Below, piece by piece: positions 72 through 17,509 of a DNA stretch of 21,344 bases. Source of the DNA: a virus; the IMG/VR virus record IMGVR_UViG_3300032293_001568, positions 1 through 21,344 of that record; one strand, written 5' to 3'. Numbering within the stretch: position 1 is the stretch's first letter; each line of letters begins with the position of its first letter. The translations under genes were made by a program, and so were the position numbers. The notes beneath the pieces were generated by a model. That model worked only from the letters and a program-made list of their open reading frames with translations. It had not been told where the DNA came from and did not search any database.

Positions 72-86
72 TTAAGGACAACAAAA

Positions 87-112
87 AACCCCCTATCTTT
101 TGGTAGGGGGTT
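87..112. terminator. Bidirectional intrinsic terminator between convergent genes
   Basis: AACCCCCTA (87-95) pairs perfectly with TAGGGGGTT (104-112) around an 8-nt loop. On the minus strand the stem is followed by a U run (plus-strand A run at 83-88), which suits the DUF3846 gene. On the plus strand it is followed by TTCTTTGCTTT, so it can also stop the gene ending at 71. Confidence 0.85.
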
Positions 113-128
113 CTTTGCTTTAGGGGTT

Positions 129-470
129 TTATACTTGTGCAAAGATTTTCAATAAGCGGTCTGCATAATTCTTATCAAGACCTAGTTGTTCACCTTCATC
201 ATCATAACCCCCAGCGATAACAACATCACCGAGAATTACATCAGGAAAGTTTGGGAAGTTAGCCAACCAAATTTCAGTTGCTCTTTCATTTATTGGAAGT
301 CCTTGCAACTTTCCTTCTTCATTCATAATAAGTGTGTAACCACTTGCAAGAGTCTTAGCCTCAATAAGACCACCTACCGCCATTTGAAGTGTTAGTAGTT
401 CGTTACTATCTGCCGTTAGGTCAATGATAGAAGCGTTTCCTTCTGCGGTTAGTTTAATTCCTAGTTTCAT
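129..470 (-). CDS. DUF3846 family small protein
   Basis: This 113-aa protein is encoded on the minus strand. The central part, LQMAVGGLIEAKTL then MNEEGKLQGLPINERAT, followed by GDVVIAGG, matches what I know of the DUF3846 family (LQ-x2-VGG-x-IE, then NEEGKL-x-GLP-x-N). That family is common in phages and in phage-derived regions of actinobacteria and firmicutes, and its function is unknown. No signal peptide or membrane segment is visible. The start is supported by AGGGAG seven bases upstream of ATG. It stands alone as a monocistronic unit, with its own promoter (513-541), a leader hairpin (485-507) and a terminator (87-112). Its orientation is opposite to the structural operon, which fits an early or accessory gene. 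The family call is from memory of the motif, not from a search. Confidence 0.8.
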   Translation of the reverse strand: MKLGIKLTAEGNASIIDLTADSNELLTLQMAVGGLIEAKTLASGYTLIMNEEGKLQGLPINERATEIWLANFPNFPDVILGDVVIAGGYDDEGEQLGLDKNYADRLLKIFAQV

Positions 471-484
471 TTGTTTTCTCCCTA

Positions 485-507
485 TAGTGGTACTTGGTTT
501 CCCACTA
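485..507 (-). promoter_or_regulatory. 5' leader stem-loop of the DUF3846 transcript
   Basis: TAGTGG (485-490) and CCACTA (502-507) form a 6-bp perfect inverted repeat with an 11-nt loop. The -10 box ends at 513 on the minus strand, so transcription should start near 506. The hairpin would therefore be at the extreme 5' end of the mRNA, just upstream of the AGGGAG ribosome site. A protective 5' hairpin is the likely role, by inference. Confidence 0.5.
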
Positions 508-512
508 CCGAA

Positions 513-541
513 ATAATAGATTACTTTCCTGCACTTTGCAA
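513..541 (-). promoter_or_regulatory. Sigma70-type promoter for the DUF3846 gene
   Basis: Read on the minus strand this is TTGCAA (-35, 536-541), a 17-nt spacer, then TATTAT (-10, 513-518). The -35 box and most of the spacer are identical over 21 nt (522-542) to the promoter of the second minus-strand gene (937-957). Spacing and box quality are close to consensus. Confidence 0.75.
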
Positions 542-585
542 GAATAAAAGAAAAGCTTTGTGCGGTGTGTCTTAGAAAAAGAAAA

Positions 586-608
586 AGCCCCCCTTGGATA
601 GGGGGGCT
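586..608 (-). terminator. Intrinsic terminator of the 620-880 gene
   Basis: AGCCCCCC (586-593) pairs with GGGGGGCT (601-608) around a 7-nt loop. On the minus strand it is followed by a U-rich run (plus-strand GAAAAAGAAAAA just to the left), placed 11 bases past the stop codon of the minus-strand gene. Confidence 0.88.
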
Positions 609-619
609 AATTCTTGCGG

Positions 620-880
620 TTACTTGGTTAGGAGTAAGTCCAAGATTTCGCTATCTGAAAGATTGCGGTAAGGGTTCTCATAAGAGTTTGGATTCTCCTC
701 AGTTACCTTAACCTTTAGTACGGTTGCTCCCATTCCCTTTGCATTCTTTGCGGTTTCAGTAATTAAGTCGCATGCATTTGTTGCGGTATCAACATGGAAA
801 GAATAATCTCTTTCTGTAGTGATTGTTCCATTTGAAGTTGCTTCTGTGTACTTAACTGTAATTTGAACTCCGTATGACAT
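620..880 (-). CDS. Small phage protein of unknown function
   Basis: This 86-aa protein is encoded on the minus strand and I do not recognise a family. The N-terminal half alternates as expected for beta strands (MSYGVQITVKYTEA, then ERDYSFHVDTATNACDLI). A helix and a strand follow (ETAKNAKGMGATVLKVKVTE), then a short acidic C-terminal helix (LSDSEILDLLL). There are no membrane segments or metal motifs, and one Cys. The start is supported by GGGAG seven bases upstream of ATG, in the same leader context as the DUF3846 gene. It has its own promoter (928-956), leader hairpin (901-921) and terminator (586-608), so it is a free-standing expression unit. The compact alpha/beta fold would suit a protein-binding early phage protein, but that is only a guess. 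Confidence 0.75.
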   Translation of the reverse strand: MSYGVQITVKYTEATSNGTITTERDYSFHVDTATNACDLITETAKNAKGMGATVLKVKVTEENPNSYENPYRNLSDSEILDLLLTK

Positions 881-900
881 TTGGTTTCTCCCTTTTTGTT

Positions 901-921
901 ATTGAAGCCCCTTGCTTCAAT
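901..921 (-). promoter_or_regulatory. 5' leader stem-loop of the 620-880 transcript
   Basis: ATTGAAGC (901-908) and GCTTCAAT (914-921) form an 8-bp perfect inverted repeat with a 5-nt loop. Its outer edge coincides with the +1 expected from the -10 box at 928-933. This is the same arrangement as in the DUF3846 leader, although the stem sequence differs. Confidence 0.55.
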
Positions 922-927
922 AAGTAA

Positions 928-956
928 AAGATATTCTACTTTCCTGCACTTTGCAA
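928..956 (-). promoter_or_regulatory. Sigma70-type promoter for the 620-880 gene
   Basis: On the minus strand this is TTGCAA (-35, 951-956), a 17-nt spacer, then TATCTT (-10, 928-933). The -35 box and the first part of the spacer are identical to those of the DUF3846 promoter. Conservation stops at the -10 box, which argues for a copied promoter cassette. Confidence 0.7.
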
Positions 957-981
957 GTCCATAAGTGGTCATTTCGTGTAT

Positions 982-4747: not shown

Positions 4748-5739
4748 TGTCACGCACAATTTCTCAAACTCCTGCTCCTAAAAAGGATCAAGTTAAGGGT
4801 TCTAAGAAAAATGCTAAAGGATCTGCATCAGGGACTCGTAAAGTTAAGTTTTCTTCCGCTGTAGAAAAATCTTTGAAGAATAAAGTTGAACAACATAACG
4901 AAAAAGCAGGTAAAGGTCGTCGTGCAACAGTTGGAATGTTAAAAGCTGTTTATCGCAGAGGTGCAGGTGCTTATAGCGTCTCACATCGACCAGGTATGAC
5001 TCGCAATCAATGGGCAATGGGTCGTGTAAATGCATTTTTAAGATTGTTGAAGTCTGGAAAGCCATCAAACTCTGCATACACAACAGATAATGATCTTCTG
5101 CCTTCTGGTCACCCACGTTCAACAAAGAAATCAAACTCCATTGCAGCTTCAGCAGGTTTGGTTCCTGAAGAGAGCGATTTAGCAGAAGCGCTAATCGAGA
5201 TTGCAGACAAATATGGAAAGTTCAATGAAGACGCCACAGGAATCTGGGCAGGGTATACACCACCAGCAGAAAATGACGTCAAAGGAATCGGAGTCAAGTG
5301 CTCTAGCTGTGTTTTATACATGGGTAACGGCTCGTGCAGAATCATCGACATGGAAGTCGAAGACGAAGGTAAGTGTCGTTTCGCGGTTATTCCAGATGGC
5401 GTCGTTGATGTTGGAGTTCTCGAAGGTGAAAAGCTCGGAAACGAAATCCAATCACCACAAGAACTAGCAAAGCTTGCTAATGAGTGGCGTTACGATCAAG
5501 AATTAAACATTGATCTCTTAGCTGAAGAAGATTACTCATCTCCAGAAGAAGCCATCCTTGCTATGGCAGAGTATTCAGGTTATGGATATGAAGCAGAGCA
5601 CGCAATCCGTGCTTCATGGCTTCGTGGAGTTCGTAACGGGGACAATCCTTTTAAAAGAGCGTCACTACTTGCATCTCTTGGTTACGAAAGCCTAGACGCA
5701 GACCTTCTTCCAAAAAAGGTAGAAGAAGATGCAGAATAA
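4747..5739 (+). CDS. Portal-adjacent Cys-rich head-region protein
   Basis: This is a 330-aa protein. Residues 1-60 are highly basic (Lys/Ser-rich), suitable for contact with DNA or scaffold. Residues 62-126 hold a conserved-looking helical module (RGAGAYSVSHRPGMTRNQWA, then VNAFLRLLKSG) ending in TDNDLLPSGHPRST (113-126). This is followed by SNSIAASAG (129-137). The same DLLP-x2-HPRST and short Ala-rich motif recur near the N-terminus of the next, giant protein. Residues 185-210 hold C185-x2-C188-x8-C197-x12-C210, a likely metal or iron-sulfur site, and then RFAVIPDG. The C-terminal 90 residues are acidic and helical and end with DADLLPKK. I know similar proteins next to actinophage portals but no proven function. 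It overlaps the giant gene by 11 bases. Confidence 0.68.
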   Translation: MSRTISQTPAPKKDQVKGSKKNAKGSASGTRKVKFSSAVEKSLKNKVEQHNEKAGKGRRATVGMLKAVYRRGAGAYSVSHRPGMTRNQWAMGRVNAFLRLLKSGKPSNSAYTTDNDLLPSGHPRSTKKSNSIAASAGLVPEESDLAEALIEIADKYGKFNEDATGIWAGYTPPAENDVKGIGVKCSSCVLYMGNGSCRIIDMEVEDEGKCRFAVIPDGVVDVGVLEGEKLGNEIQSPQELAKLANEWRYDQELNIDLLAEEDYSSPEEAILAMAEYSGYGYEAEHAIRASWLRGVRNGDNPFKRASLLASLGYESLDADLLPKKVEEDAE

Positions 5740-8700
5740 AATTATTGTAAGCTCTTATAGAGCATATAGCAGCCGTGAACAGGCACGTTTTATTCGTCAA
5801 GAAGCAAATGCACTACTTGAAAAAGCAAATGAATTTTCTACAACAAGCCGTCGAGTAAATCGTAGATCTGCATATAAGGTTCTTGCTCGTTCTCTACAAA
5901 AGACTAGAGGACTTCCTTTCTCAATTCGTAAGCATCAAGCACTTACAGAGCTTTCTAACTACATCTCTTTAGCTAAGTACAACAAAATTGTTGGCCTAGA
6001 AGCATTTAACACAGATCTACTTCCAGTATCTCACCCAAGATCAACTCGCATGAACACAATGACAGCATCTGCACTTGCAGAGGCTCAGATGCGCTGGGTA
6101 CTTGATGACCCACGCATTAAAGATGAGACAGTAAAGGGATTACTTGCTTCTGCAATGTTTTCTCCTATCGATTCACCAGAACATAAGTATTCGATGATTC
6201 GCTTAGAGAATATGCCTCAAGGACAAGTACCTCTTGAAGTTTTAATAGCTGCTGCAAATCCTTTTGCAGGTAAAAACTCTGCCGCAGCTCGTCGTGCTCG
6301 TGAAGCTGTACAGCTTTCAGACCGCTTTGAGCGATGGATTAATATGGGAAGATCCGCAGCTAAAAGAGCTACAGATGGCTTCCGTGTTTACGTTAAAAGA
6401 AATGACGGGTCAACTAAGAGTCTTTCTGGAGAACTACTTAACCAGAATATGTTTGATCCGAACCTTGTTGATATTGAAGTAGGTAAGGGAAGAGTTGCAA
6501 CAGTACCAACGAAGCTTGGTGAAGGTCTTGAAGCCTTTATTAAGAGCAAAGACTCACAAGATGGATACTCTTCTGTAGAAGCTGAGCTCCCTAACGGTGC
6601 ACAAGCACTCCCAGAAAGCAGCATTGTTATATCTGATGCCCCAAGTATTTATCGTAAAGATGAAGAAATGAAAAATGGCGCTATCAGATACACGGACGAT
6701 AAATATGACATAGTTAAATTTAATAACCCTAAAGAAGCACAGACAGCAATTGGTGAAGGTCAAAAAAGAGCTGCAGAGTTAGATAAGCCAGAGCCAAAGC
6801 TTCTTAAGAAGGGTGAAGTTGATGCAGATTCTGGTAAACAGTTCTGGAATCCTGACGAGCCAGTCTTTGGAGTTTACCGCCGTGGAAAAAATACACCTCT
6901 TGCATTTGCTCAGTCTTGGAAAGATGTAAACAACGAAATTTTGCGTGACGAACCTAATCTTGATGAAGATGAGGGTCGTACATATACTCGTCCAGAACCA
7001 CAAACAGAAGATGACAATGTCCCTCTTCTAGATCAAGCAGATGAAATCTTTAAGCCAGCTAAAAAGACAGCTGATAAGAAAAATAAAGTTTCTTCATTCC
7101 CATATGAAGTCCCAGATAGAGCATACGAGTTTAATCCTAACGAAGAGTATGTTCCAGAATTTGAATTTGATGATCCTGTAGCAATTGCAAATGATCAGAT
7201 GCCAGAGGAGCTAGAGGACGCTCTTGTTAGAGCAGTAGAACCTGTAAGTGATACTGAAAAAGCAACTGGCTATGCCCCAATTAGTTTTACAGATGGTCGT
7301 GAGCAAGATGTTCCTGCAGAAGCTATTGCTGCAGCAATTCGTGAGCAAGGTGGAGATGCTGAAATGGCTCTTGCACAAGCTTATGACAAGATTGCTGGAA
7401 ACAATAAGAATCAGGAAGCCCTTGATAAATCAAGAGGTGTAAAAGATGAGAAGCAGCTCGAAGAAGAAACTAAAAAAGCAGATAAGATTCTTAAGGATGC
7501 AGAAAAAGAAGCTAAGAAGATTAAGAAGCCTACATCTGATGAAATTATTGAAGAAGAGATTCAAAAGCCTGATACGAAAAAAACTGAATCTAAAAAACCA
7601 ATTTCTGAAGAAGAACCTATTGCAGACATGGTTGATGAAGGTGAAGAAAAATCTGTACCTCCGCTACTTAAAAGTCTTTCAGAAGAAGAATTAGCAGGGT
7701 ATAAGAAAGACGGTGACTATCGATCATTCTTGCCAAAGAATGCAGATATAGATACACCTGAAGGTCTCTACAAGTTAGATCCAAACCCAGTAGACCCTGC
7801 AGAAAATTTAATCCCTAAAGAAGTTGAATCAGAATATCCTTTCTACAATGCTGTAGATCTTGCAAACGATAACACAACTAAAGATTTAACTTCGAAGTTA
7901 GAAGATGCAATTAAAGGAACTGGACCTCAAGGCCCAGGATTTGGCGAACTCGATATATCTGACCCTAACTTAGAAACAGTAGGAGCTCCCGTTTCAGCAG
8001 AAGCTCTGCGTGATGCACTTCAGCTTCAAGGTAAAGATACAGATGCAATCATTGAGAAAATTAACAAGAAGGCTAGCAAAACAAAAGCAAAGTTAAAGCC
8101 TCCTGTTTCTGAAGAGCCAGAACCAGAAGCAGAGCCAGATGTAAAAGAAGAAGAAGAAAAACCTAAGAAGACAGTTAGCTACAAGCGTTCAGGTAATCGT
8201 ACTCTTCTTCGTGCTGGTAAGGGTGGAGCTTTCAAGGATAAAGAAATTGCTGACTTCCTTGACGAGAATGGTTTCGAGTGGACTGGATCTATTGAAAGAG
8301 ATGGAAAAACTCTTCCAGTTAACTCAGAATCTGCTACACAGACTGATGAAGAGTTTAAGGCTTTTGCTCGTGAACTTCGTGATCGTTTTGGTATTGATCT
8401 AGAACCTCGTGCTGCAACTGCAAAGTCACCTGCTCAAGATCCAATTGATATTGATGCCCCAGCTCCAGAACCAGAAGCACCAACTCCTGCTCCTGAACCA
8501 GAAGAACCAGTGGCAGAACCTACTCCAGAAGAACCTTTGAAGGACGGTAAAAAGTTTGTAGAAGATATTAAAGTTGGAGACGAAGTTTATATTCCTGGCG
8601 TAGGTTGGGTAAAAGTAAAGAGTATCTCTAAAGATGAAAAACGTTTTGAAGGTACTAAAAGAACAGTGCCTCTATGGAAAATTGAATACGAAGATGAAAA

Positions 8701-11700
8701 CGGTAAGACGGGCACATGGAAGTGGATGCCTATTTGGGAAGACGGTCAAGGAAATAAACTTGACGGAAACCTTCTTACTCGTGAGCCTGGAACTGAAGGA
8801 CCTGAAGTACCTGAAGTATCAGAAGATGTAGCTCCAACTCCTGTGTCTGAAGAGACTCCTACTCCATCAGTAGTACCAGATCAAATTGCTGGACTACCTG
8901 CTGGAACTAGAGCTACTAGTAAAGATCTTAATGGCAGAGCAATTATTTGGATCAAGCAAGAAGATGGTTCATGGGTAAACATTAAAACTGGTGAAATTGT
9001 AGATGAGCTACCTATTCCTATAAAGCAAATCGGGGGGTCGCAGTGGTGGAGCGACTACGAGTTTACTGCACCTGAAAATCTTGGTGGAGAAGAAGTAGCC
9101 GATGACGATGACTCAGATCTTGTTGATGAAGTAATTATTGACAGCGTCATAGATGAGGACAAACCTACACCTACTGTTGACGATATGGTAGATAGAATTA
9201 AAGTAAGAAGAAAGCTTACAAGAGCTGAAAGAAAAGCTTTAAAGAAAGAAAAAAAGCATCGCCAGCAGATGCTTATTAAAATTATTGACTCTAACTTTGG
9301 TCCTGGAGCTTTCAACTTAGATTTTGCAGAACGTAGAGCAGTTAAAGCAATGCTGTTCGATTTAGATTATATGACTACAGAAGAACTAGAAGATATTAGC
9401 CGTGCAGTTAACGCTGAACTTGGCTGGGAGTTTATTAAGAACCTTCCATATAAGCCAGAAGGATCAGACCAAGTTACTGATAAGCCTGAAGAAACACCAG
9501 AGGCTGAACCAGAGACCGAACCAGAGGTAGTCGAGCCTGAAGTTCTTCCTACTGAAGAAGAAGTTGCAGAAGCTGAAAGACAACGCAAGCTCAAAGCAAT
9601 TCGTGATAAGAAAAAGCGAGAGCGTGAAGATAAACTTATTGAAGAAGACGAAAAGGCCGAGAAAGAGAAGGCTAAAAAAGAAAAGCCTGAGTCAAAGCCA
9701 GAAGAGCTTTCTAGTGATAAAAAGAAGGTTCTTAAAGAGCTTGTAGCAGAGCGTCGTAAACTTCAAGATGCAATTGATGAAGCAGATTTAGCTGATGAAG
9801 TAAAGCCAGAAGAAAAGAAGGCTCTTAAGGATGCTCTAGATGAGCTCACTCGTCGCATTGATGAGATAGTTCTCTCTACACCAGATGAAACTCCAAAGCC
9901 TGAACCAACTAAAGATTCTACTCCTTCAGAAAAAACTCCTCAGCTTGTAATTGGAGTAACTACAGATCAACTAAAGCCTGGCGATGTTTTAGTAGACGGT
10001 CACTTTACAATTACAAAGATTGAGCGTGAAGGAACAAAGAAGGTAAATGTAGGAGGAGCTGTACAAGAGGTTCCTGCATACAGAATTACTGGCTACTATC
10101 CAAACTCTGTAGAGCAGTCAAGCAAGCTTTGGTCAGAAAACTACGCAACAGATCTTTATCGTGGAGCAACAACTCCAGCAAAGGGAGATCTTCCAGAGCT
10201 AAATCAGCCAAAGGCAGAAGATTACGGTCCAGAGTATGCATTCCCTAATCAGAGAAAAGTTAAGTTTAAGGATAGAACTCTTTACGCACCTAAAAATGCA
10301 GAGCTAGAAGCTAAATTCTTAGAAGATTATGCAGAGTACGACGCAGAGCGTATTCGTAGACAGAATCTGTGGGAAGCCCCTAAGACTTCACCACAAGCTC
10401 CTTCAAATCCTAGATATGCTACAAATATTCCTGCATCTGAAATTCAGGTTGGGGATATTGCATTTAGATTTAATAAATTTGGAGCAAGAGAGTTCTTCAC
10501 AGTTACCAAGGTTGTCGGTACTGCTGACGGTGTTACAACTATTGAAGGTCACTATGTAGGTCATCAAACACAAGTTAAGGAATGGCGATCTGGCACATCT
10601 ATCGATGTTATTCGCGGGGAGACAAATCTTCCAAAGGCTGGAGACAAAGAGCCTTTAGATAGACCAGATAAGGCTCTACCTAACTACGGACAGCTAGAGA
10701 AAGAGCGTCAAGCAAAGATTGCTTTAGCTGATCAAGGCTACACATTCAATGCCGAATCTCCAATGCCTAAGGTGTCAAAGCCTAAACTACCTCCGTTCTA
10801 TGGTTTTGTAGAGCTACTTCTAGATAATGATGCAGATGGAGCTTCTATTCAAAAGGCTTTAGATGAAAAGGGATTCATTGTTTTTGATTTTGAAACCTTA
10901 GGAAACGATGTACAGAATGTACTAAACCCAGATGCCCCTATCCAAGCTGCAGCAGTAAAGTATGTTGATGGCAAGAAGGTAGATGAGCTTAATATTTATA
11001 TTAATCCTGGACAGCCTCTAGGTAATTATTACTACGAAACTGATGAGTCTGGAAACAGAGTCCTCAAAGCTAGTCGTATGCTTGATGCTGAAGGAAATCC
11101 TATAACAGACGAATGGTTAGCTACACAACCTGATCTTAAAGAGCAACTACAAAAGCTTGTAGATTTCTTTGGAGATAAGCCAACTCTTGTAGGTCAAAAT
11201 GTTGACTTCGACATAAATGTTCTACAACGATGGGCGCAGAAGTTAGATATAGATTTCAGCTTAACCTCTGCTGTAGATACTTTAGGAATTGCAAAGATCT
11301 TACAAAATATTGAACGTTCTACAGTTGAGTTCCCAGAGAATCCAAAAGAAGGAGATCAAGCCTTCTCTTCTGCAGGAAATCCTTGGACATGGACTCTAGA
11401 TAAGAATGGCAAGGGAAGATGGGCCGCTCCCTCTAACGCTCTTAATCAGTTAGCAAAGCGTTTAGGAATAGAAGTTAACTCTTCTGGTTTCCATAATGCA
11501 CTATTTGATGTAGAAGTTACAGAAAAGGTATTAAGAAAGCTTCTTGAGAATGTTAAAGCTGGAGATCTACCTATCGGTGGAACTGTAGCTTATGCAAACG
11601 AATTTAAGAAGTGGATGAACTCTTTAGCCAGCGAGAAGCAGGTAAAGTCTAAGAGAGAAGCTGACAAGATTATCTCTGATGGACTTGCTGGAGAAAAGGT

Positions 11701-14700
11701 TACTGGCGAAGATGTTGACTCAGCCGTTAAGGAAGTTGGCTCTGTCGAAGAAGAGACTGTAACAATTGTTGAGGGTGAGGAATCTTCAGACTCTCCAAAG
11801 GAATATATATCTCCTCTATATGCAGATAAGATTAATGAGGACTGGGTTAAAGATCCAGAAAACACAGACTTTATTACTAATACAAGAATTAAAGATCTAA
11901 GGGTTGGTGATTTCTTAGTCGGCTCTGATGGGGAAATTTATGAAGTTATTAAGTTTGAAGATGATGAAGTACGCCCAGCCGATGCTGTAAGAGTCTACAG
12001 AGCAAACCTCAACACAGGTCAGATACTTGAAAACAGAAAATCAGAAAGAGAAGACGGTGGAACAGGGTTCTTCTTAAACGGAAAAATTGAAGGCGGAATT
12101 TATCGTAGAAAAGATAATGCAGATAAGACCAATGCTCAGATAGAAACAGAAACTATCGAAGCCATTGAAGATGTTGAGCCAGTACTAGTTCCTGAAGAGA
12201 AGCCAGTTAAGGGTGAAGAAATAACCCCAGAACAAGCAGAGACAGTTGTAAATGATGCAATTGATGCAATCACAACTTCTAAGCCAGATGCATCTATTGA
12301 AGAAGCTGTAAAGGGTCTAAATGTAGACGAGACTGTAAAAGAGCAGGTAGTTGCAGAACCTGAGGCAATTACACCTAGCCCAACAGTAGGCGGTTCTCCG
12401 TTCCACATATCTGCTGATGGAGTAACTCCAGTTAAGTCAGGCGATAAAGTTCTTCATGCTAAGACTAAAAGAATTGGCGTTGTAAGCGTTCTTCTAGATA
12501 CTTACAACAAGAAATATACAAATTATGTAAAGGTTAGATACGAAGATACTGGAGAAAGAGAGCCTGTAGCTTCTAAGAATCTTATAATTACTTACTCTGC
12601 ACCCGAAGCTGGGTCGGTTCGTAAACCTCTTAGAGACGAAACATCAGTTACAGAGGTTACTGCAAAGATTAAAGATATTCAAGGAGATTCACCAGCTGAA
12701 GGTGCATTAAATCCTGAAGAGCTTGCACAAAAATGGAAAGAAGCAGAAACAGCTCGTGACGCTAAAGTAAAAGAAGTTAATTTTGTAAGCACATCCCCTG
12801 ATGTAGTAAGCAAGATAAAAGAAAATCTTCCTACACGAGTAACTACACCAAGCTCTCTTCCAAGTCTTAAGACTGGAAATCCATATGATGTAACTTTTGC
12901 GTTCGATAAGCCTACAGCTAAAGAATTAAGTAAGTCTGCAGTAGAGCTTAATTTAGACTCTGAAGATGATTTAATTGTTTTTAGAGCATCTAAAGATCTA
13001 TTCCTTAGAAATCAACCTGTTGCAACAATTAAACCAGATGGATCAATAGTCTGGCAAAAAGAAAATGATAAGCGTTCATTCTCTCTAGAACTACAAAAAG
13101 CTTTAGAAGATTTTATTAGCCCAATTACAAATCTCAGTGCTATGGCTATCATGCCAGAGCCTGAAGATTTAGAAGGAACAGACGTAGAAAACTTTGGCAA
13201 TGGAACTCTTCTAGGCGAGTCAGAGAGCTCATTTGACTACAACAACATTTCTAAGTTCCCTCCAACAGAGGAGCAAAGAAAGATTGTTGATGCAATTATG
13301 GCTGGTAAAGACCTTGTTGTCCAAGCTCTTGCTGGAACTGGAAAAACATCTACTTTAGTTCTAGCAGCTAAAAGACTTCTTGCTGAAAAGCCAGACGCTA
13401 AACTTCTTTACATAGTATTTAATAAAGAAACAGCTGAAGAAGCTCTAGGAAGAATGCCAAAGAACGTAGATTCTAGAACTATGGATAATATTGCTTATTC
13501 TATGTTAGAAGATAACTATAGAAGCAGAAACAAACTTAGCAATAAAGATAAAATAGGTGATAGAAGTCTTATTGACTTTACAGATTTTGTAAACCTATTT
13601 GAGTACTATAAGTATGAGCCAGTGACTTTAATGATTAGAGGCGCTGAAACTACTCTAGGAAGAAACGATCTCGTACAAGAGATTAGAGAAGCTGTTGATA
13701 GATTTGCAGTCTCTGGCGACGATGTTTTAACTGAAAAACACTTTGCCAAGAAGATGCCGTTCTTCGATACAGTTCCAAAGGTTTTAGTAGATTATGCAAA
13801 GAGAATGTGGGATGACGTCAGCACTGAAGGCGGATGGGATCCTACTTCTAAGAAATTATCTAGAATTGACTTCTCACACATGCTAAAAACATGGGCACTT
13901 ACTAAACCTCAGTTTGCAGATGGATTAAATTCTGGATCAACAAGTGAAAAAGACTTTAAGGGAAGAAAAAATGAACTCTTCTTCTTCGATGAAGCACAAG
14001 ATATGAACCCAGTAATTGTCAAGCTTCTAGCTGATCAAGAAAATATTCAAAAGGTTTATGTTGGAGACAGTAACCAAGCTATCTACGCATTCCGTGGTGC
14101 TGTAGACGAGCTAAATAATGTTAAAAATGCAGAAGAGCTATATCTTACAAAAACATTCCGTTTTGGAAATATCATTGCAGCAATAGGAAATAGATTCTTA
14201 ACAACACTTGGATCTAGAAGAAAAATTGTAGGAAAGCCAGGAGAAGATGATGGCGTTATTCTTGAGAAAGAAATGGAAGATCCAGATGTAATTATTGCTA
14301 GAACAAATGGTGGAGTTATTGACTCTGTCTTTGATTTACTAGCTAAAGGTAAGAATCCTGGACTAAACCTAGAAACATATTACAAAGCTTTATCATATGC
14401 AAAATCAGCTCAGTGGTTAATGGCTGCCAATAAGGGAACACCTCCATACAAGAAGCCAAAACTACATGAAGATTTAGCTGGTTTCCAAAACTGGAACGAA
14501 GTCTTAAAGGCAGTTAACGAAGGTAAGTCAGTTGGCGGTGCTATGTACATGGTTCGTCTTCTAAGAGATAGAAAGATGAACATTAAAGAGTTAGTAGATA
14601 AACTCAATAGCATCACTCCAATTCGTGGAACTGGGTTTAGAGAAGATGTATATGTACCTGTAGGTAAAGAAGCAATTCAAGATGGAATTACTGGCGATTT

Positions 14701-17509
14701 TGGCATGGGAAGAAACAATAAAGGTCATATGTCAATGATCCGATACACCATTAAAGATGGTGTTTTGGAGCTACCTAACTCAAAATCTTATTTAGATTTT
14801 CTTGTAAAAGACCCTGTATACATTACAAAGAAGGGTGTAGACAAGTACGGAAAAGAGGTAGAGTATAAAGTACCAACAGTGTCCTTCACTAAAGATCAAG
14901 AAGATGACATTCTTACTTTAATTAACGATATCAGAAGATGGGTACAAAACTACGCTCCAAGAATTCCTATTGATACTGAAGTAATTACCGCACATAAATC
15001 AAAGGGTAAGGAGTGGGATCGTGTAAAGCTTCACGATGACTTTAAGCAGCCTGAAATTAATGATGAAGGAGAGATGGAGCTTCCAGATGCGGAAGAGCGA
15101 AGAATTTCATACGTTGCTGTCACTCGTGCAAAGAAGGCTTTAGATATTGGCGATAGCCTAAAGTGGATCTTCGATGTAACTTCAGAAGAAGATGGAAAGC
15201 CTGAAGAAATAGAGATTGAAAAACTTATCGGTATGTCTGTTACTGCAGATCCAGATCCAGTAACTCCAGAAGAGGTTGGCAACGAGGTTGTCAAGGCTAG
15301 AAAGATTACAGATCAGAAAACTCTAGAGGTAGCTAACCGACTAATCGAGCTTATTGAAAAGGGCGTTGTTCCTTGGACTAAGGGATGGTCTGGTGGAGGC
15401 TTCCTTCCAACAAATGGAAAGACAAACAAGAGTTATCAGGGAACCAACACGCTCGCTCTCTGGGCAGCAATGCACCTAAATGATTGGACAGATCCTAGAT
15501 TCTTAACCTTCAATCAAGGTAAATCTCTTGGAGGCTTTGTTCGTAAGGGCGAAACAAGCACAAAGATTTTAAAGCCTAATGTCGTAGCTAAAGATGTAAA
15601 ACAGCCAGATGGAACTATTAAAAAAGAAGGCTACATCTACTTTACAGAAATTCCAGTGTTTAACGTGTCTCAATTTGAGAAACTAAATCTTCCACCACTA
15701 GTAAAGAAGGATCCAGTTCCTGTACTAGAGATTGAAACTCAAATACTAGAGTCATACAAAGACCATCCAGAAATTATTTACAGACCTCAAGATGGAGCTT
15801 TCTATCGTCCTTCTGAGGACAAAATTTACTTACCTCTAAGAGAGCAGTTCGACAGCAGTCAAACTTTCATTGAAACTCTTTTCCATGAACTAGGTCACAG
15901 TACAGGACACACTTCACGTTTAGGTAAAGAAGGAAAGCGCAAAGATCTTCAAGATAATTATGGAGACCACAGAGCAAGCCGCGGTGAAGAAGAGCTTATT
16001 GCAGAAATTACAGTTGCACTCATTGCTGCAGAGTTTGGTGTTGAAATTGACTGGGGTAACACAGCTTCTTATGCAGAAGGTTGGTTAAAGCCTCTTAAGG
16101 ATGATCCAGGAATGATTATCATTGCTGCAAAGCAAGCTCAAGATGCAGTTAACTGGATGCTTGGAATTAAAAAAGGAGATACGCCTGACCAAGTTGGAGC
16201 TTCTTTCCCGGGATTACAAGATTATAAAGATGGTGGATCTGGCGGATTAGTTGGATCTAGAAGCACTGTAGGTTTTGTATCTACCGATGCGCTAAAGGAT
16301 ATGGCTGGCAATGTTGCTGGAAACGAAGAAGCTATAGAATCTTATAGAAAGTCTCTTCGTGAGGGTAAAGGATTTGCAATAAGAGATTTCAATGGAAAAC
16401 CGTTTAACGATCCAATTATGGTGATCTATGATGATGAAACAGGTATGGCTTTTGTTGGCGAAGGAAACCACAGACTACAAGCAGCTATCGCTGAAAACAT
16501 TCCTTTTGTCCCAGTTCGCGTCGTTAGAGGTAAAGCTAGCGAAATGGTTGAAGATGCAGAAAAAGGAAAATTCCCTAAGCAAATTAAAAACAATAAAGAG
16601 CCAAAATTTGTAGAGACAACTGGTGATAGAGCAGGGGAGCCAGTAAGTGCTGGCTACATCCCACCAGAGATGCACCCAAGCTTTGTATTTGATAAAGAAC
16701 TTGTTAGCGATGAAGTTCCAAATTTTGTTTCTCAGAGTGACCCCTTTGGTCCTCCAGAGCCTGGCGAAGGTGTAGGTAGTGAAGGTCAAACTGGAGAAGA
16801 AATTGCTGATCAAGCACCTGAAACTCCAGAAGCAACTCCAGAACCTAATGTTGGCGAACAAGGTCAAACAGGTGAAGAGATTGCTAGCAAGGCTCCAAAA
16901 AATAAAGACGCATCTGTAGAACCTACAAAGTTTACTTTTTCAGGTGAAGAATATGATTTGTGGGACGACATTACCTATGACCGTGAATCAGATAGAGGAA
17001 TAGACAACGAAGGTATTGAAAGTGGTCACGGAATTTTTGCTTCAAGACTTCTAGATGGACAAGAACTAATAACAGACAGAGGCGAGATTAACAACTACAT
17101 TTCAGAAATTTTAAAGAAATATGGTTATGGTAATAAATTCTTTATATTAGCTAAAGGCGCTGTTGCCGATAAAGTTTTAGGGGCAGACCCTATGGAAGGG
17201 GGACAGGGTATAGAAGCTGGAGTAGGTCGTTCAGACAGCTCTATTATTCCTGAAGGTAACCCTCTAAAAGAAATCGAGTTCCCTGTATTTTTAGCTAGAT
17301 CTAGAGGAATCTCTAAGGTAGCTATGCTTCACGAAATTGCTCACCTTATGGAAGCTGGATGGAGAACTGGCATCGGAGGAGGTCATAACATGATATGGCA
17401 TCAAACATTTTTAACACTTCTACGTCAAGAAGGTTTCCAAAAAGAGGCTAATCTACTAGCATTGACCATAGGAGAAGTGAAAGGAGATACAGGTGCCATT
17501 AGTCCCTGA
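5729..17509 (+). CDS. Giant polyvalent protein (exonuclease, helicase, ArdC-N, zincins, ParB-like), 3926 aa
   Basis: This single uninterrupted frame encodes roughly 430 kDa. Residues 1-116 carry TDLLPVSHPRST (95-106) and MTASAL, shared with the upstream head protein. Residues 195-275 hold a module resembling one in the downstream protease protein. Lys/Glu coiled-coil-like stretches lie at about 556-611 and 1274-1385, with Pro/Glu linkers between. Five similar beta-type modules are centred on a GD dipeptide (950, 1418, 1575, 2060, 2238). Enzymatic domains follow: DEDDh exonuclease (about 1705-1945), SF1 UvrD-like helicase (2508-3145), ArdC-N (3190-3320), HExxH zincin (3375-3470), ParB-like (3508-3615) and a terminal zincin (3735-3926). 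This matches the phage polyvalent protein concept of Iyer and colleagues, in which such proteins are packaged and ejected with DNA. Position between portal and protease supports that. Arg codons switch from CGT-rich to AGA-rich along the gene. Confidence 0.9.
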   Translation: MQNKIIVSSYRAYSSREQARFIRQEANALLEKANEFSTTSRRVNRRSAYKVLARSLQKTRGLPFSIRKHQALTELSNYISLAKYNKIVGLEAFNTDLLPVSHPRSTRMNTMTASALAEAQMRWVLDDPRIKDETVKGLLASAMFSPIDSPEHKYSMIRLENMPQGQVPLEVLIAAANPFAGKNSAAARRAREAVQLSDRFERWINMGRSAAKRATDGFRVYVKRNDGSTKSLSGELLNQNMFDPNLVDIEVGKGRVATVPTKLGEGLEAFIKSKDSQDGYSSVEAELPNGAQALPESSIVISDAPSIYRKDEEMKNGAIRYTDDKYDIVKFNNPKEAQTAIGEGQKRAAELDKPEPKLLKKGEVDADSGKQFWNPDEPVFGVYRRGKNTPLAFAQSWKDVNNEILRDEPNLDEDEGRTYTRPEPQTEDDNVPLLDQADEIFKPAKKTADKKNKVSSFPYEVPDRAYEFNPNEEYVPEFEFDDPVAIANDQMPEELEDALVRAVEPVSDTEKATGYAPISFTDGREQDVPAEAIAAAIREQGGDAEMALAQAYDKIAGNNKNQEALDKSRGVKDEKQLEEETKKADKILKDAEKEAKKIKKPTSDEIIEEEIQKPDTKKTESKKPISEEEPIADMVDEGEEKSVPPLLKSLSEEELAGYKKDGDYRSFLPKNADIDTPEGLYKLDPNPVDPAENLIPKEVESEYPFYNAVDLANDNTTKDLTSKLEDAIKGTGPQGPGFGELDISDPNLETVGAPVSAEALRDALQLQGKDTDAIIEKINKKASKTKAKLKPPVSEEPEPEAEPDVKEEEEKPKKTVSYKRSGNRTLLRAGKGGAFKDKEIADFLDENGFEWTGSIERDGKTLPVNSESATQTDEEFKAFARELRDRFGIDLEPRAATAKSPAQDPIDIDAPAPEPEAPTPAPEPEEPVAEPTPEEPLKDGKKFVEDIKVGDEVYIPGVGWVKVKSISKDEKRFEGTKRTVPLWKIEYEDENGKTGTWKWMPIWEDGQGNKLDGNLLTREPGTEGPEVPEVSEDVAPTPVSEETPTPSVVPDQIAGLPAGTRATSKDLNGRAIIWIKQEDGSWVNIKTGEIVDELPIPIKQIGGSQWWSDYEFTAPENLGGEEVADDDDSDLVDEVIIDSVIDEDKPTPTVDDMVDRIKVRRKLTRAERKALKKEKKHRQQMLIKIIDSNFGPGAFNLDFAERRAVKAMLFDLDYMTTEELEDISRAVNAELGWEFIKNLPYKPEGSDQVTDKPEETPEAEPETEPEVVEPEVLPTEEEVAEAERQRKLKAIRDKKKREREDKLIEEDEKAEKEKAKKEKPESKPEELSSDKKKVLKELVAERRKLQDAIDEADLADEVKPEEKKALKDALDELTRRIDEIVLSTPDETPKPEPTKDSTPSEKTPQLVIGVTTDQLKPGDVLVDGHFTITKIEREGTKKVNVGGAVQEVPAYRITGYYPNSVEQSSKLWSENYATDLYRGATTPAKGDLPELNQPKAEDYGPEYAFPNQRKVKFKDRTLYAPKNAELEAKFLEDYAEYDAERIRRQNLWEAPKTSPQAPSNPRYATNIPASEIQVGDIAFRFNKFGAREFFTVTKVVGTADGVTTIEGHYVGHQTQVKEWRSGTSIDVIRGETNLPKAGDKEPLDRPDKALPNYGQLEKERQAKIALADQGYTFNAESPMPKVSKPKLPPFYGFVELLLDNDADGASIQKALDEKGFIVFDFETLGNDVQNVLNPDAPIQAAAVKYVDGKKVDELNIYINPGQPLGNYYYETDESGNRVLKASRMLDAEGNPITDEWLATQPDLKEQLQKLVDFFGDKPTLVGQNVDFDINVLQRWAQKLDIDFSLTSAVDTLGIAKILQNIERSTVEFPENPKEGDQAFSSAGNPWTWTLDKNGKGRWAAPSNALNQLAKRLGIEVNSSGFHNALFDVEVTEKVLRKLLENVKAGDLPIGGTVAYANEFKKWMNSLASEKQVKSKREADKIISDGLAGEKVTGEDVDSAVKEVGSVEEETVTIVEGEESSDSPKEYISPLYADKINEDWVKDPENTDFITNTRIKDLRVGDFLVGSDGEIYEVIKFEDDEVRPADAVRVYRANLNTGQILENRKSEREDGGTGFFLNGKIEGGIYRRKDNADKTNAQIETETIEAIEDVEPVLVPEEKPVKGEEITPEQAETVVNDAIDAITTSKPDASIEEAVKGLNVDETVKEQVVAEPEAITPSPTVGGSPFHISADGVTPVKSGDKVLHAKTKRIGVVSVLLDTYNKKYTNYVKVRYEDTGEREPVASKNLIITYSAPEAGSVRKPLRDETSVTEVTAKIKDIQGDSPAEGALNPEELAQKWKEAETARDAKVKEVNFVSTSPDVVSKIKENLPTRVTTPSSLPSLKTGNPYDVTFAFDKPTAKELSKSAVELNLDSEDDLIVFRASKDLFLRNQPVATIKPDGSIVWQKENDKRSFSLELQKALEDFISPITNLSAMAIMPEPEDLEGTDVENFGNGTLLGESESSFDYNNISKFPPTEEQRKIVDAIMAGKDLVVQALAGTGKTSTLVLAAKRLLAEKPDAKLLYIVFNKETAEEALGRMPKNVDSRTMDNIAYSMLEDNYRSRNKLSNKDKIGDRSLIDFTDFVNLFEYYKYEPVTLMIRGAETTLGRNDLVQEIREAVDRFAVSGDDVLTEKHFAKKMPFFDTVPKVLVDYAKRMWDDVSTEGGWDPTSKKLSRIDFSHMLKTWALTKPQFADGLNSGSTSEKDFKGRKNELFFFDEAQDMNPVIVKLLADQENIQKVYVGDSNQAIYAFRGAVDELNNVKNAEELYLTKTFRFGNIIAAIGNRFLTTLGSRRKIVGKPGEDDGVILEKEMEDPDVIIARTNGGVIDSVFDLLAKGKNPGLNLETYYKALSYAKSAQWLMAANKGTPPYKKPKLHEDLAGFQNWNEVLKAVNEGKSVGGAMYMVRLLRDRKMNIKELVDKLNSITPIRGTGFREDVYVPVGKEAIQDGITGDFGMGRNNKGHMSMIRYTIKDGVLELPNSKSYLDFLVKDPVYITKKGVDKYGKEVEYKVPTVSFTKDQEDDILTLINDIRRWVQNYAPRIPIDTEVITAHKSKGKEWDRVKLHDDFKQPEINDEGEMELPDAEERRISYVAVTRAKKALDIGDSLKWIFDVTSEEDGKPEEIEIEKLIGMSVTADPDPVTPEEVGNEVVKARKITDQKTLEVANRLIELIEKGVVPWTKGWSGGGFLPTNGKTNKSYQGTNTLALWAAMHLNDWTDPRFLTFNQGKSLGGFVRKGETSTKILKPNVVAKDVKQPDGTIKKEGYIYFTEIPVFNVSQFEKLNLPPLVKKDPVPVLEIETQILESYKDHPEIIYRPQDGAFYRPSEDKIYLPLREQFDSSQTFIETLFHELGHSTGHTSRLGKEGKRKDLQDNYGDHRASRGEEELIAEITVALIAAEFGVEIDWGNTASYAEGWLKPLKDDPGMIIIAAKQAQDAVNWMLGIKKGDTPDQVGASFPGLQDYKDGGSGGLVGSRSTVGFVSTDALKDMAGNVAGNEEAIESYRKSLREGKGFAIRDFNGKPFNDPIMVIYDDETGMAFVGEGNHRLQAAIAENIPFVPVRVVRGKASEMVEDAEKGKFPKQIKNNKEPKFVETTGDRAGEPVSAGYIPPEMHPSFVFDKELVSDEVPNFVSQSDPFGPPEPGEGVGSEGQTGEEIADQAPETPEATPEPNVGEQGQTGEEIASKAPKNKDASVEPTKFTFSGEEYDLWDDITYDRESDRGIDNEGIESGHGIFASRLLDGQELITDRGEINNYISEILKKYGYGNKFFILAKGAVADKVLGADPMEGGQGIEAGVGRSDSSIIPEGNPLKEIEFPVFLARSRGISKVAMLHEIAHLMEAGWRTGIGGGHNMIWHQTFLTLLRQEGFQKEANLLALTIGEVKGDTGAISP
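8540..8790 (+). other. GD module 1 of the giant protein
   Basis: Residues about 938-1020 begin VEDIKVGDEVYIPGVGWVKV and continue as alternating strands (KRTVPLWKIEYEDENGK, WKWMPIWEDGQ). The opening pattern (I/L)-K-x-GD followed by a short strand, turn and second strand recurs in four more modules, near 9930-10200 (GD 1418), 10415-10680 (GD 1575), 11860-12125 (GD 2060) and 12395-12640 (GD 2238). They look like SH3-like or KOW-type small barrels. The fold is inferred. Confidence 0.5.
10830..11560 (+). other. DEDDh 3'-5' exonuclease domain of the giant protein
   Basis: All five DEDDh residues are visible: D1720 and E1722 in FDFETLG (Exo I), D1828 in QNVDFDINVL (Exo II), and H1922 and D1927 in FHNALFDVEVT (Exo III). 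The domain should degrade single-stranded DNA or RNA from the 3' end using two metal ions. About 35 residues (1866-1902) with a WTWT...GRW pattern are inserted between Exo II and Exo III, where the family usually has a short link. Confidence 0.88.
13250..15190 (+). other. SF1 (UvrD/FBH1-like) DNA helicase domain of the giant protein
   Basis: The Q motif PPTEEQRKI has Q2516. Walker A is ALAGTGKTST with K2539, followed by the Ia-like FNKETAEEAL. Walker B is DEAQD (2754-2758), motif III is GDSNQAIYAFRGA (2779-2791), and the motif IV region is IIARTNGG. Motif V is VITAHKSKGKEWDRV (3085 onward) and motif VI is YVAVTRAKKAL (3128 onward). All the residues needed for ATP hydrolysis appear present, so an active 3'-5' DNA translocase is expected. 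About 90 residues (2960-3050) are inserted before motif V. Arg codons are almost all AGA. Confidence 0.9.
15295..15690 (+). other. ArdC-type N-terminal ssDNA-binding domain
   Basis: Residues about 3190-3320 have the ArdC-N pattern: a helix (EVANRLIELIEKG), VVPWTKGW, PTNGKTNKSYQGTNTLALW, DPRFLTFNQGKSLGGFVRKG, and an ending VFNVSQFEKL. ArdC proteins bind single-stranded DNA and protect incoming plasmid DNA from restriction. This domain is followed by a zincin, as in plasmid ArdC. Confidence 0.85.
15840..16190 (+). other. Zincin-like metallopeptidase domain 1 (ArdC-associated)
   Basis: HELGH (3386-3390) gives two zinc-binding His and the catalytic Glu. EEELIAE (3420-3426), about 32 residues later, supplies the probable third ligand, as in the ArdC C-terminal metallopeptidase. 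All key residues are present. The substrate is unknown. It could be a host defence protein or the giant protein itself. Confidence 0.82.
16254..16560 (+). other. ParB-like domain of the giant protein
   Basis: Residues about 3508-3615 contain PIMVIYDDETGMAFVGEGNH, then RLQAAIAENIPFVPVRVV. The GEGNHR (3577-3582) and following A-x6-PVPV-like pattern is the ParB/sulfiredoxin-type G-x-HR motif seen in many phage polyvalent proteins. It probably binds nucleotide or acts on DNA. The specific reaction is unknown. Confidence 0.68.
16775..16899 (+). repeat. Short direct repeat in the linker before the terminal zincin
   Basis: The protein segment EGQTGEEIADQAP (from residue 3685) is repeated as QGQTGEEIASKAP (from 3711), separated by a Pro/Glu/Thr-rich stretch. 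The copies differ at several third codon positions, so it is not a fresh DNA duplication. Confidence 0.6.
16925..17509 (+). other. C-terminal zincin-like domain 2 of the giant protein
   Basis: Residues about 3735-3926 contain HEIAH (3868-3872) followed by GGGHNMIWHQTF, with H3886 (or H3891) as a possible third metal ligand. This HExxH...GHxxxW arrangement resembles small metallopeptidase-like domains in actinophage and plasmid proteins. Its spacing is unlike that of the first zincin, so it is a distinct family. Confidence 0.62.

Follow-up and report, generated by a model that had tools for sequence, protein, structure and literature searches.

Many small genes of a probable freshwater actinophage and its relatives are arranged as single-gene cassettes, in which a promoter of characteristic sequence is usually followed, at the predicted first base of the transcript, by a hairpin whose stem varies freely in sequence. 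There is very little doubt about this promoter-hairpin architecture, which we regard as secure. As for its meaning, the best reading (probability of about 0.6) is a phage-specific promoter regulon, in which each mRNA would be stabilised by a hairpin at its 5' end whose loop is rich in purines.

Operon membership is the usual assumption for phage genes that are small and of unknown function. The small genes described here are standardised single-gene units, with a defined promoter, a predicted start site and a 5' RNA structure, and their format provides a means to find and count small genes in uncultured freshwater actinophages. To our knowledge, few actinobacterial 5' stabilisers have been characterised; if the hairpins stabilise mRNA, they would constitute a natural library of dozens of such elements for actinobacteria. 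Moreover, since one promoter type goes together with one leader type, a link between initiation and RNA fate becomes testable.

The two cassettes of the window

The window, that is, the whole virus record of 21,344 bases, most likely derives from a freshwater actinophage: over 15% of the query, its portal gene shares about 70% identity with the one in Actinomycetia phage DSL-LC01 (OQ999401), whose source is Dishui Lake, and its weaker matches are Microbacterium, Arthrobacter and Gordonia phages.

Both cassettes lie on the minus strand and follow the same order: TTGCAAAGTGCAGGAAAGTA, a 17-nt spacer, the -10 box, 6 nt, A(+1), a stem-loop from that A, AGGGAG, ATG, the gene and a terminator (Table 1). 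An earlier sequence-only reading had described a 21-nt promoter segment identical in the two cassettes, along with a 17-nt spacer, a stem beginning at the predicted first transcribed base, an AGGGAG leader and terminators, and all of these were found where it had placed them. Exact copies of the 21-mer occupy 522-542 and 937-957 on the minus strand, and shuffled sequence gave zero matches to it even at up to 3 mismatches. The same reading took the products of the two genes to be unrelated, in agreement with the lack of any BLASTP alignment between the 113-aa and the 86-aa protein. The former matches PF12957 and phrog_3777 (E 1.9e-15 and 7.2e-15, respectively); the latter has no Pfam or PHROG match, and the cassette is common to its orthologs too.

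The hairpin of cassette 2 folds with -12.1 kcal/mol (z -4.9) and that of cassette 1 with -7.0 kcal/mol (z -1.3, which is weak alone), both folds including the base at -1. In cassette 1, the five pairs of AGUGG/CCACU run from +1, a sixth is formed via the base at -1, and the loop has 11 nt; stems AGUGG/CCACU and GCGG/CCGC are found in its orthologs. A T7-like promoter reading of CACTATAGGGAGA (477-489) was rejected, as there was no T7 promoter match and most relatives differ there (CACACTAGGGAG, CACAATAGGGAG); the T7-type promoter TAATACGACTCACTATAGGGAGA was absent at up to 3 mismatches.

Table 1. Cassette features of the window, and examples among the copies of the approximately 78-nt RNA in other contigs (further copies exist).
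Feature	Position	Strand	Description
Cassette 2 promoter	928..956	-	-35 TTGCAA (956-951), spacer block GCAGGAAAGTA (947-937), -10 TATCTT (933-928); exact repeat and PWM family
Cassette 2 5'-terminal stem-loop	901..921	-	Predicted +1 A921; AUUGAAGC-AAGGG-GCUUCAAU
Cassette 2 ribosome-binding site AGGGAG	888..893	-	Assigned from sequence
Cassette 2 gene	620..880	-	86-aa orphan protein
Cassette 2 terminator	577..608	-	AGCCCCCCT-ATCCA-AGGGGGGCT, then T-run; T-tailed terminator call at 586-608
Cassette 1 promoter	513..541	-	-35 TTGCAA (541-536), GCAGGAAAGTA (532-522), -10 TATTAT (518-513)
Cassette 1 5'-terminal stem-loop	485..507	-	Predicted +1 A506; (U)AGUGG-GAAACCAAGUA-CCACU(A)
Cassette 1 ribosome-binding site AGGGAG	478..483	-	Assigned from sequence
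Cassette 1 gene	129..470	-	113-aa DUF3846 protein
Cassette 1 terminator	82..117	-	G+C-rich inverted repeat ACCCCCTA-loop-TAGGGGGT; T-run on minus strand
~78-nt RNA	L213:17637-17717	-	The copies stand before different genes
~78-nt RNA	L218:7999-8079		As above
~78-nt RNA	L051:1961-2041		As above
~78-nt RNA	L274:9508-9588	-	As above

A promoter family in related phages

Further copies of the promoter had been predicted and, the window being the entire 21-kb record, they were sought in relatives. The exact 21-mer was found in 15 other virus contigs, and scanning these contigs along their whole length revealed degenerate copies at other genes, many with a differing hairpin sequence in the same place; additional contigs were found via the degenerate pattern. 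A position weight matrix (PWM) of the 29-nt promoter alone, with the hairpin left out, gave 233 raw hits (109 distinct sites) at a cut-off of 11, as compared with 5 hits in the same bases reversed or complemented. At a score of at least 16, 105 deduplicated sites in 27 contigs, window included, bear out the prediction. Many of these are mutually orthologous: the proteins downstream of 91 leaders fall into 54 groups. A broad scan of CAGGAAAGTANNNTANNNT brought up many unrelated contigs and was kept out of the statistics.

The freshwater actinophage contigs have from 2 to 23 copies each, clustered in the small-gene region adjoining the portal gene. In the 134-kb contig G016, for instance, all sites but one fall within 73.2-82.5 kb, the outlying one (G016 31699) being probably spurious. 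The term "plug-in cassette" that had been proposed for the format is a fair one: the genes are small (median 82 aa) and 51 of 101 are followed by their own terminator. One cassette gene of G018 and G031 is larger (602-635 aa; L225:13890-15797, minus strand); its product contains, by eye, a metal-binding VWA-like stretch, DISGSM, and is without PHROG or Pfam match.

The consensus, TTGnAAAtgtCAGGrAAGTAnnnTAnnnT-N6-A, has the elements of a sigma-70/SigA-type promoter (TTG, 17-nt spacer, TAnnnT and A at +1), to which the spacer block is an addition. As regards a phage sigma factor, no Sigma70_r4 or r2 match was obtained, and Sigma70_r4_2 appeared only below the cut-off, in 6 of 9 records, several of the contigs being fragments; 8 of 9 records contain WhiB genes, for which no link to the spacer block was seen. 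The motif is not a host one, since 257 Gb of bacterial genomes yielded 2 matches, neither with a comparable +1 hairpin on reading. At up to 3 mismatches it was not found in phages with a related portal (DSL-LC01, Big4, Pumpernickel, Racecar and Sixama) nor in Faith1, whose DUF3846 homologue lies within a gene run lacking the promoter-hairpin unit.

Transcription would start at the conserved A, which occupies +1, after 6 nt from the -10 box, in 92% of the first 37 sites. Eight sites look leaderless, with the start codon exactly at the predicted +1, so that this start is supported independently of the hairpin. As a group these eight are unstructured (mean z -0.03 vs -1.93), and one of them, G031 37936, could alternatively be leadered, with a hairpin. 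Leaderless genes are common in mycobacteria (PMC7148126).

Position, pairing and loop of the hairpin

When the 97 leadered sites are scanned in 28-nt windows, mean folding energy dips to about -6 kcal/mol where the window starts between -4 and +1, whereas most nearby windows give means of about -1.4 to -2.5. Folding becomes stronger again more than 60 nt upstream, where the structures are probably the terminators of preceding genes. A single hairpin of -3.5 kcal/mol or below is present at 72 of the 97 sites; 61 of these 72 begin between +1 and +4 (25 at +1, 22 at +2, 9 at +3 and 5 at +4), so most stems lie, as had been anticipated, no more than 4 nt from the predicted start. Measured from that start, they stand close to the 5' terminus of the predicted mRNA, as in the ompA and gyrase leaders. 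An energy of -5 or below is reached by 79% of genes with the motif vs 45% of motif-free genes with upstream gaps, a significant but modest contrast, and therefore it is the fixed position that carries the argument.

The sequence-only reading also held that the stems keep their position while differing in sequence; the same arrangement recurs in relatives, with arms that covary. Duplex energies below -8 are found for 49% of arms taken in cis and for 3% of swapped arms (p = 5e-18): arms pair within one leader and not between leaders, which indicates that pairing is selected while the stem sequence is free. Among 40 distinct pentaloop hairpins, standard pairs make up 85-100% at pairs 1 to 6, vs 40-52% when shuffled, and several pair types occur at every pair position. 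The 86-aa protein family alone has four stems in the same place, namely AUUGAAGC/GCUUCAAU, AUUGGGGC/GCCUCAAU, GUUGGUC/GAUCAAC and CUGAUC/GAUCAG. Selection thus acts on pairing, position and loop, and not on stem sequence. The hairpin is not obligatory, since some 15-20 of the 97 leadered sites have little or no structure, e.g. the ACTAGGGAAAGG leaders.

Loops of 5 nt occur in 41 of the 72 strong hairpins, and AGGG in 30. In the 40 distinct pentaloop hairpins the first base is always A, followed mostly by A or G and then G, and 21 loops read AAGGG or AGGGA. A loop far more conserved than the stems, and resembling the ribosome-binding site of the same leaders, is what would be expected if an RNA-binding protein of phage or host, or the ribosome, bound the hairpin by recognising the purine pentaloop and translation of the whole set were controlled in this way; a pure cap model does not require a constant purine loop. 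Recognition of this kind is the main rival of a 5' stabiliser, although we consider it rather unlikely: loops of 3 to 16 nt and of other sequence stand at the same place (GAAACCAAGUA in cassette 1 of the window; AAUCAC and CAAAGU elsewhere), and no RNA-binding protein was identified.

Sister phages and a possible role in transcription

Sister phages, represented by another group of freshwater contigs, possess TTGACT-N-TATACT promoters, which also precede single small genes at the same 6-nt distance from the start as in the CAGGrAAGTA set. Some of these genes are recognisably similar, by eye, to cassette genes (DUF3846-like, GLPDSA and CVEC proteins). Their leaders (n=59) are mostly open, with a mean of -1.3 kcal/mol at +1 and 9 of 59 at -5 or below; single-gene promoters therefore need no hairpin, and the hairpin goes with the CAGGrAAGTA promoter. 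Five sister contigs (L278, L281, L286, L290 and L294) have many TTGACT/TATACT promoters and apparent leaderless genes with ATG at +1 (ATGACCCAAACA...).

This association, together with a position fixed relative to the start site, could be explained if the inverted repeat worked in transcription, either as a pause or promoter-escape element coupled to the spacer block or as a DNA operator for a repressor or activator. Such a role is improbable, however, because leaderless and hairpin-free members share the promoter, and because stems that differ from gene to gene could not be read as an operator by one DNA-binding protein. A recent copying of one promoter region, by duplication or gene conversion, which would leave the shared features without selective meaning, can be practically dismissed: the 21-nt block is indeed exact in the window, but the duplication proposed from it is unnecessary since both promoters are members of a degenerate family, the exact match is in part accidental (the two genes keep separate promoters across relatives, and in most of these the promoters differ by 1-2 bases), and the same format, with covarying stems, is found at many unrelated genes.

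Proposed mechanism

For the preferred reading, a 5' stabiliser, the working unit would comprise TTGnAAA, the CAGGrAAGTA spacer block, TAnnnT, a start at the A 7 nt downstream, the hairpin, an AGGGAG-type leader, one small gene and often a terminator. The host RNA polymerase with its main sigma factor would initiate at the conserved A. A phage factor likely acts at the promoter as well, since the spacer block exceeds the needs of a plain sigma-70 promoter, and it might assist by reading this block. With a start at that A, each mRNA would begin inside a helix, which would keep the 5' end from 5'-dependent decay (RNase E or RNase J, pyrophosphohydrolase). Both loop and leader are rich in purines, the unpaired leader bases being 55% A and 30% G; they would offer few cleavable single-stranded bases and may load ribosomes early, and the net result would be stable single-gene messages in infection.

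We infer stabilisation from precedents. An effect of the ompA 5' stem-loop on mRNA stability is cited in PMC7148126; in Mycobacterium smegmatis, the gyrase mRNA has a protective 5' stem-loop followed by a Shine-Dalgarno sequence, and polypurine stabilisers have also been described (PMC2358910).

A structured RNA of about 78 nt

Several cassettes have, in place of the hairpin, a longer RNA of about 78 nt, which begins at +1 or up to 2 nt from it and also stands at the start site of TTGACT/TATACT-type promoters. Standard pairs fill 99.6% of the base-pair cells across 24 distinct sequences, and six pairs change on both sides; sliding the structure by 1-3 columns abolishes the signal. With a covariance model, 9 of 12 records show a copy, one in each genome, and no Rfam match was obtained. 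The apical loop reads as a palindrome that varies between phages (CUUGCAAG, CUCUAGAG, CGCUAGCG, CUCCGGAG, CCUGCAGG), possibly allowing dimer formation. What follows the copy at L280:7189-7269 is apparently a terminator and not an open reading frame, so this copy may function as a free RNA.

The occurrence of this RNA at one site in many genomes, along with stems of free sequence and a preferred purine pentaloop, raises a broader and doubtful idea, namely that the phage lineage marks a set of mRNAs with a genome-wide 5' RNA cap. A dedicated factor might read the marks, so that marked messages would survive and unmarked ones would be degraded in infection.

Relation to known systems

The leaders of ompA, Bacillus subtilis aprE and M. 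smegmatis gyrase, as well as polypurine (STAB-SD) stabilisers, are similar in having a short stem at or near the 5' end, then a Shine-Dalgarno sequence and a purine-rich leader, and the cassettes would work in a like manner. Whereas ompA, aprE and gyrase are single genes, as many as about 20 genes of a single phage share the cassette arrangement, all under one promoter motif; their stems are unrelated, a purine pentaloop is preferred, and stabilisation is here an expectation by analogy. No description of a genome-wide 5'-hairpin format in phages was found among the open-access papers searched.

The SAS/ESAS elements of cluster K mycobacteriophages recur in intergenic regions directly before small genes, and combine a SigA-like promoter with an inverted repeat. 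The ESAS repeat is conserved in sequence, in a motif containing the -35 and -10 boxes, and Pope et al. obtained little evidence of an RNA hairpin (PMC3203893, PMC11373665). Unlike this conserved 15-17-bp inverted repeat, the cassette repeat lies at and after +1, and its stems are free in sequence and covary; the 13-bp SAS GGGATAGGAGCCC has 0 matches in the window at up to 2 mismatches.

DSL-LC01 (OQ999401) also carries a repeated promoter at each small gene, with 6 nt from the -10 box to the probable +1, but the promoter is TCTAAAG-n-GTTATAAT and the leaders are mostly unstructured. Its contig (L048) has 22 copies of TCTAAAG-GTTATAAT-N6 before small genes; in 3 of these a very stable hairpin lies at the probable start or close to it. 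The Rfam family RF02980 (freshwater-2 RNA) is, like the cassette leaders, a freshwater leader RNA, and ends in AAGGAGAAAACAAAUG. Membership was rejected, given scores of 23.5 and 18.9 bits vs a cut-off of 49.9 and an alignment that puts the first hairpin on the promoter, and the Rfam scan of the relatives gave no family at gathering score.

Neighbouring features of the window

Immediately upstream of cassette 2, positions 1010-1110 hold an iteron-like tandem repeat of TAGTCAGTAAGTTAC, with a 15-nt unit in 6.6 copies, which separates divergent gene blocks. Finally, a 3926-aa open reading frame spans 5729-17509; exonuclease-like, helicase-like and ArdC-like segments are recognised in it by eye, and its product is a candidate polyvalent virion protein.
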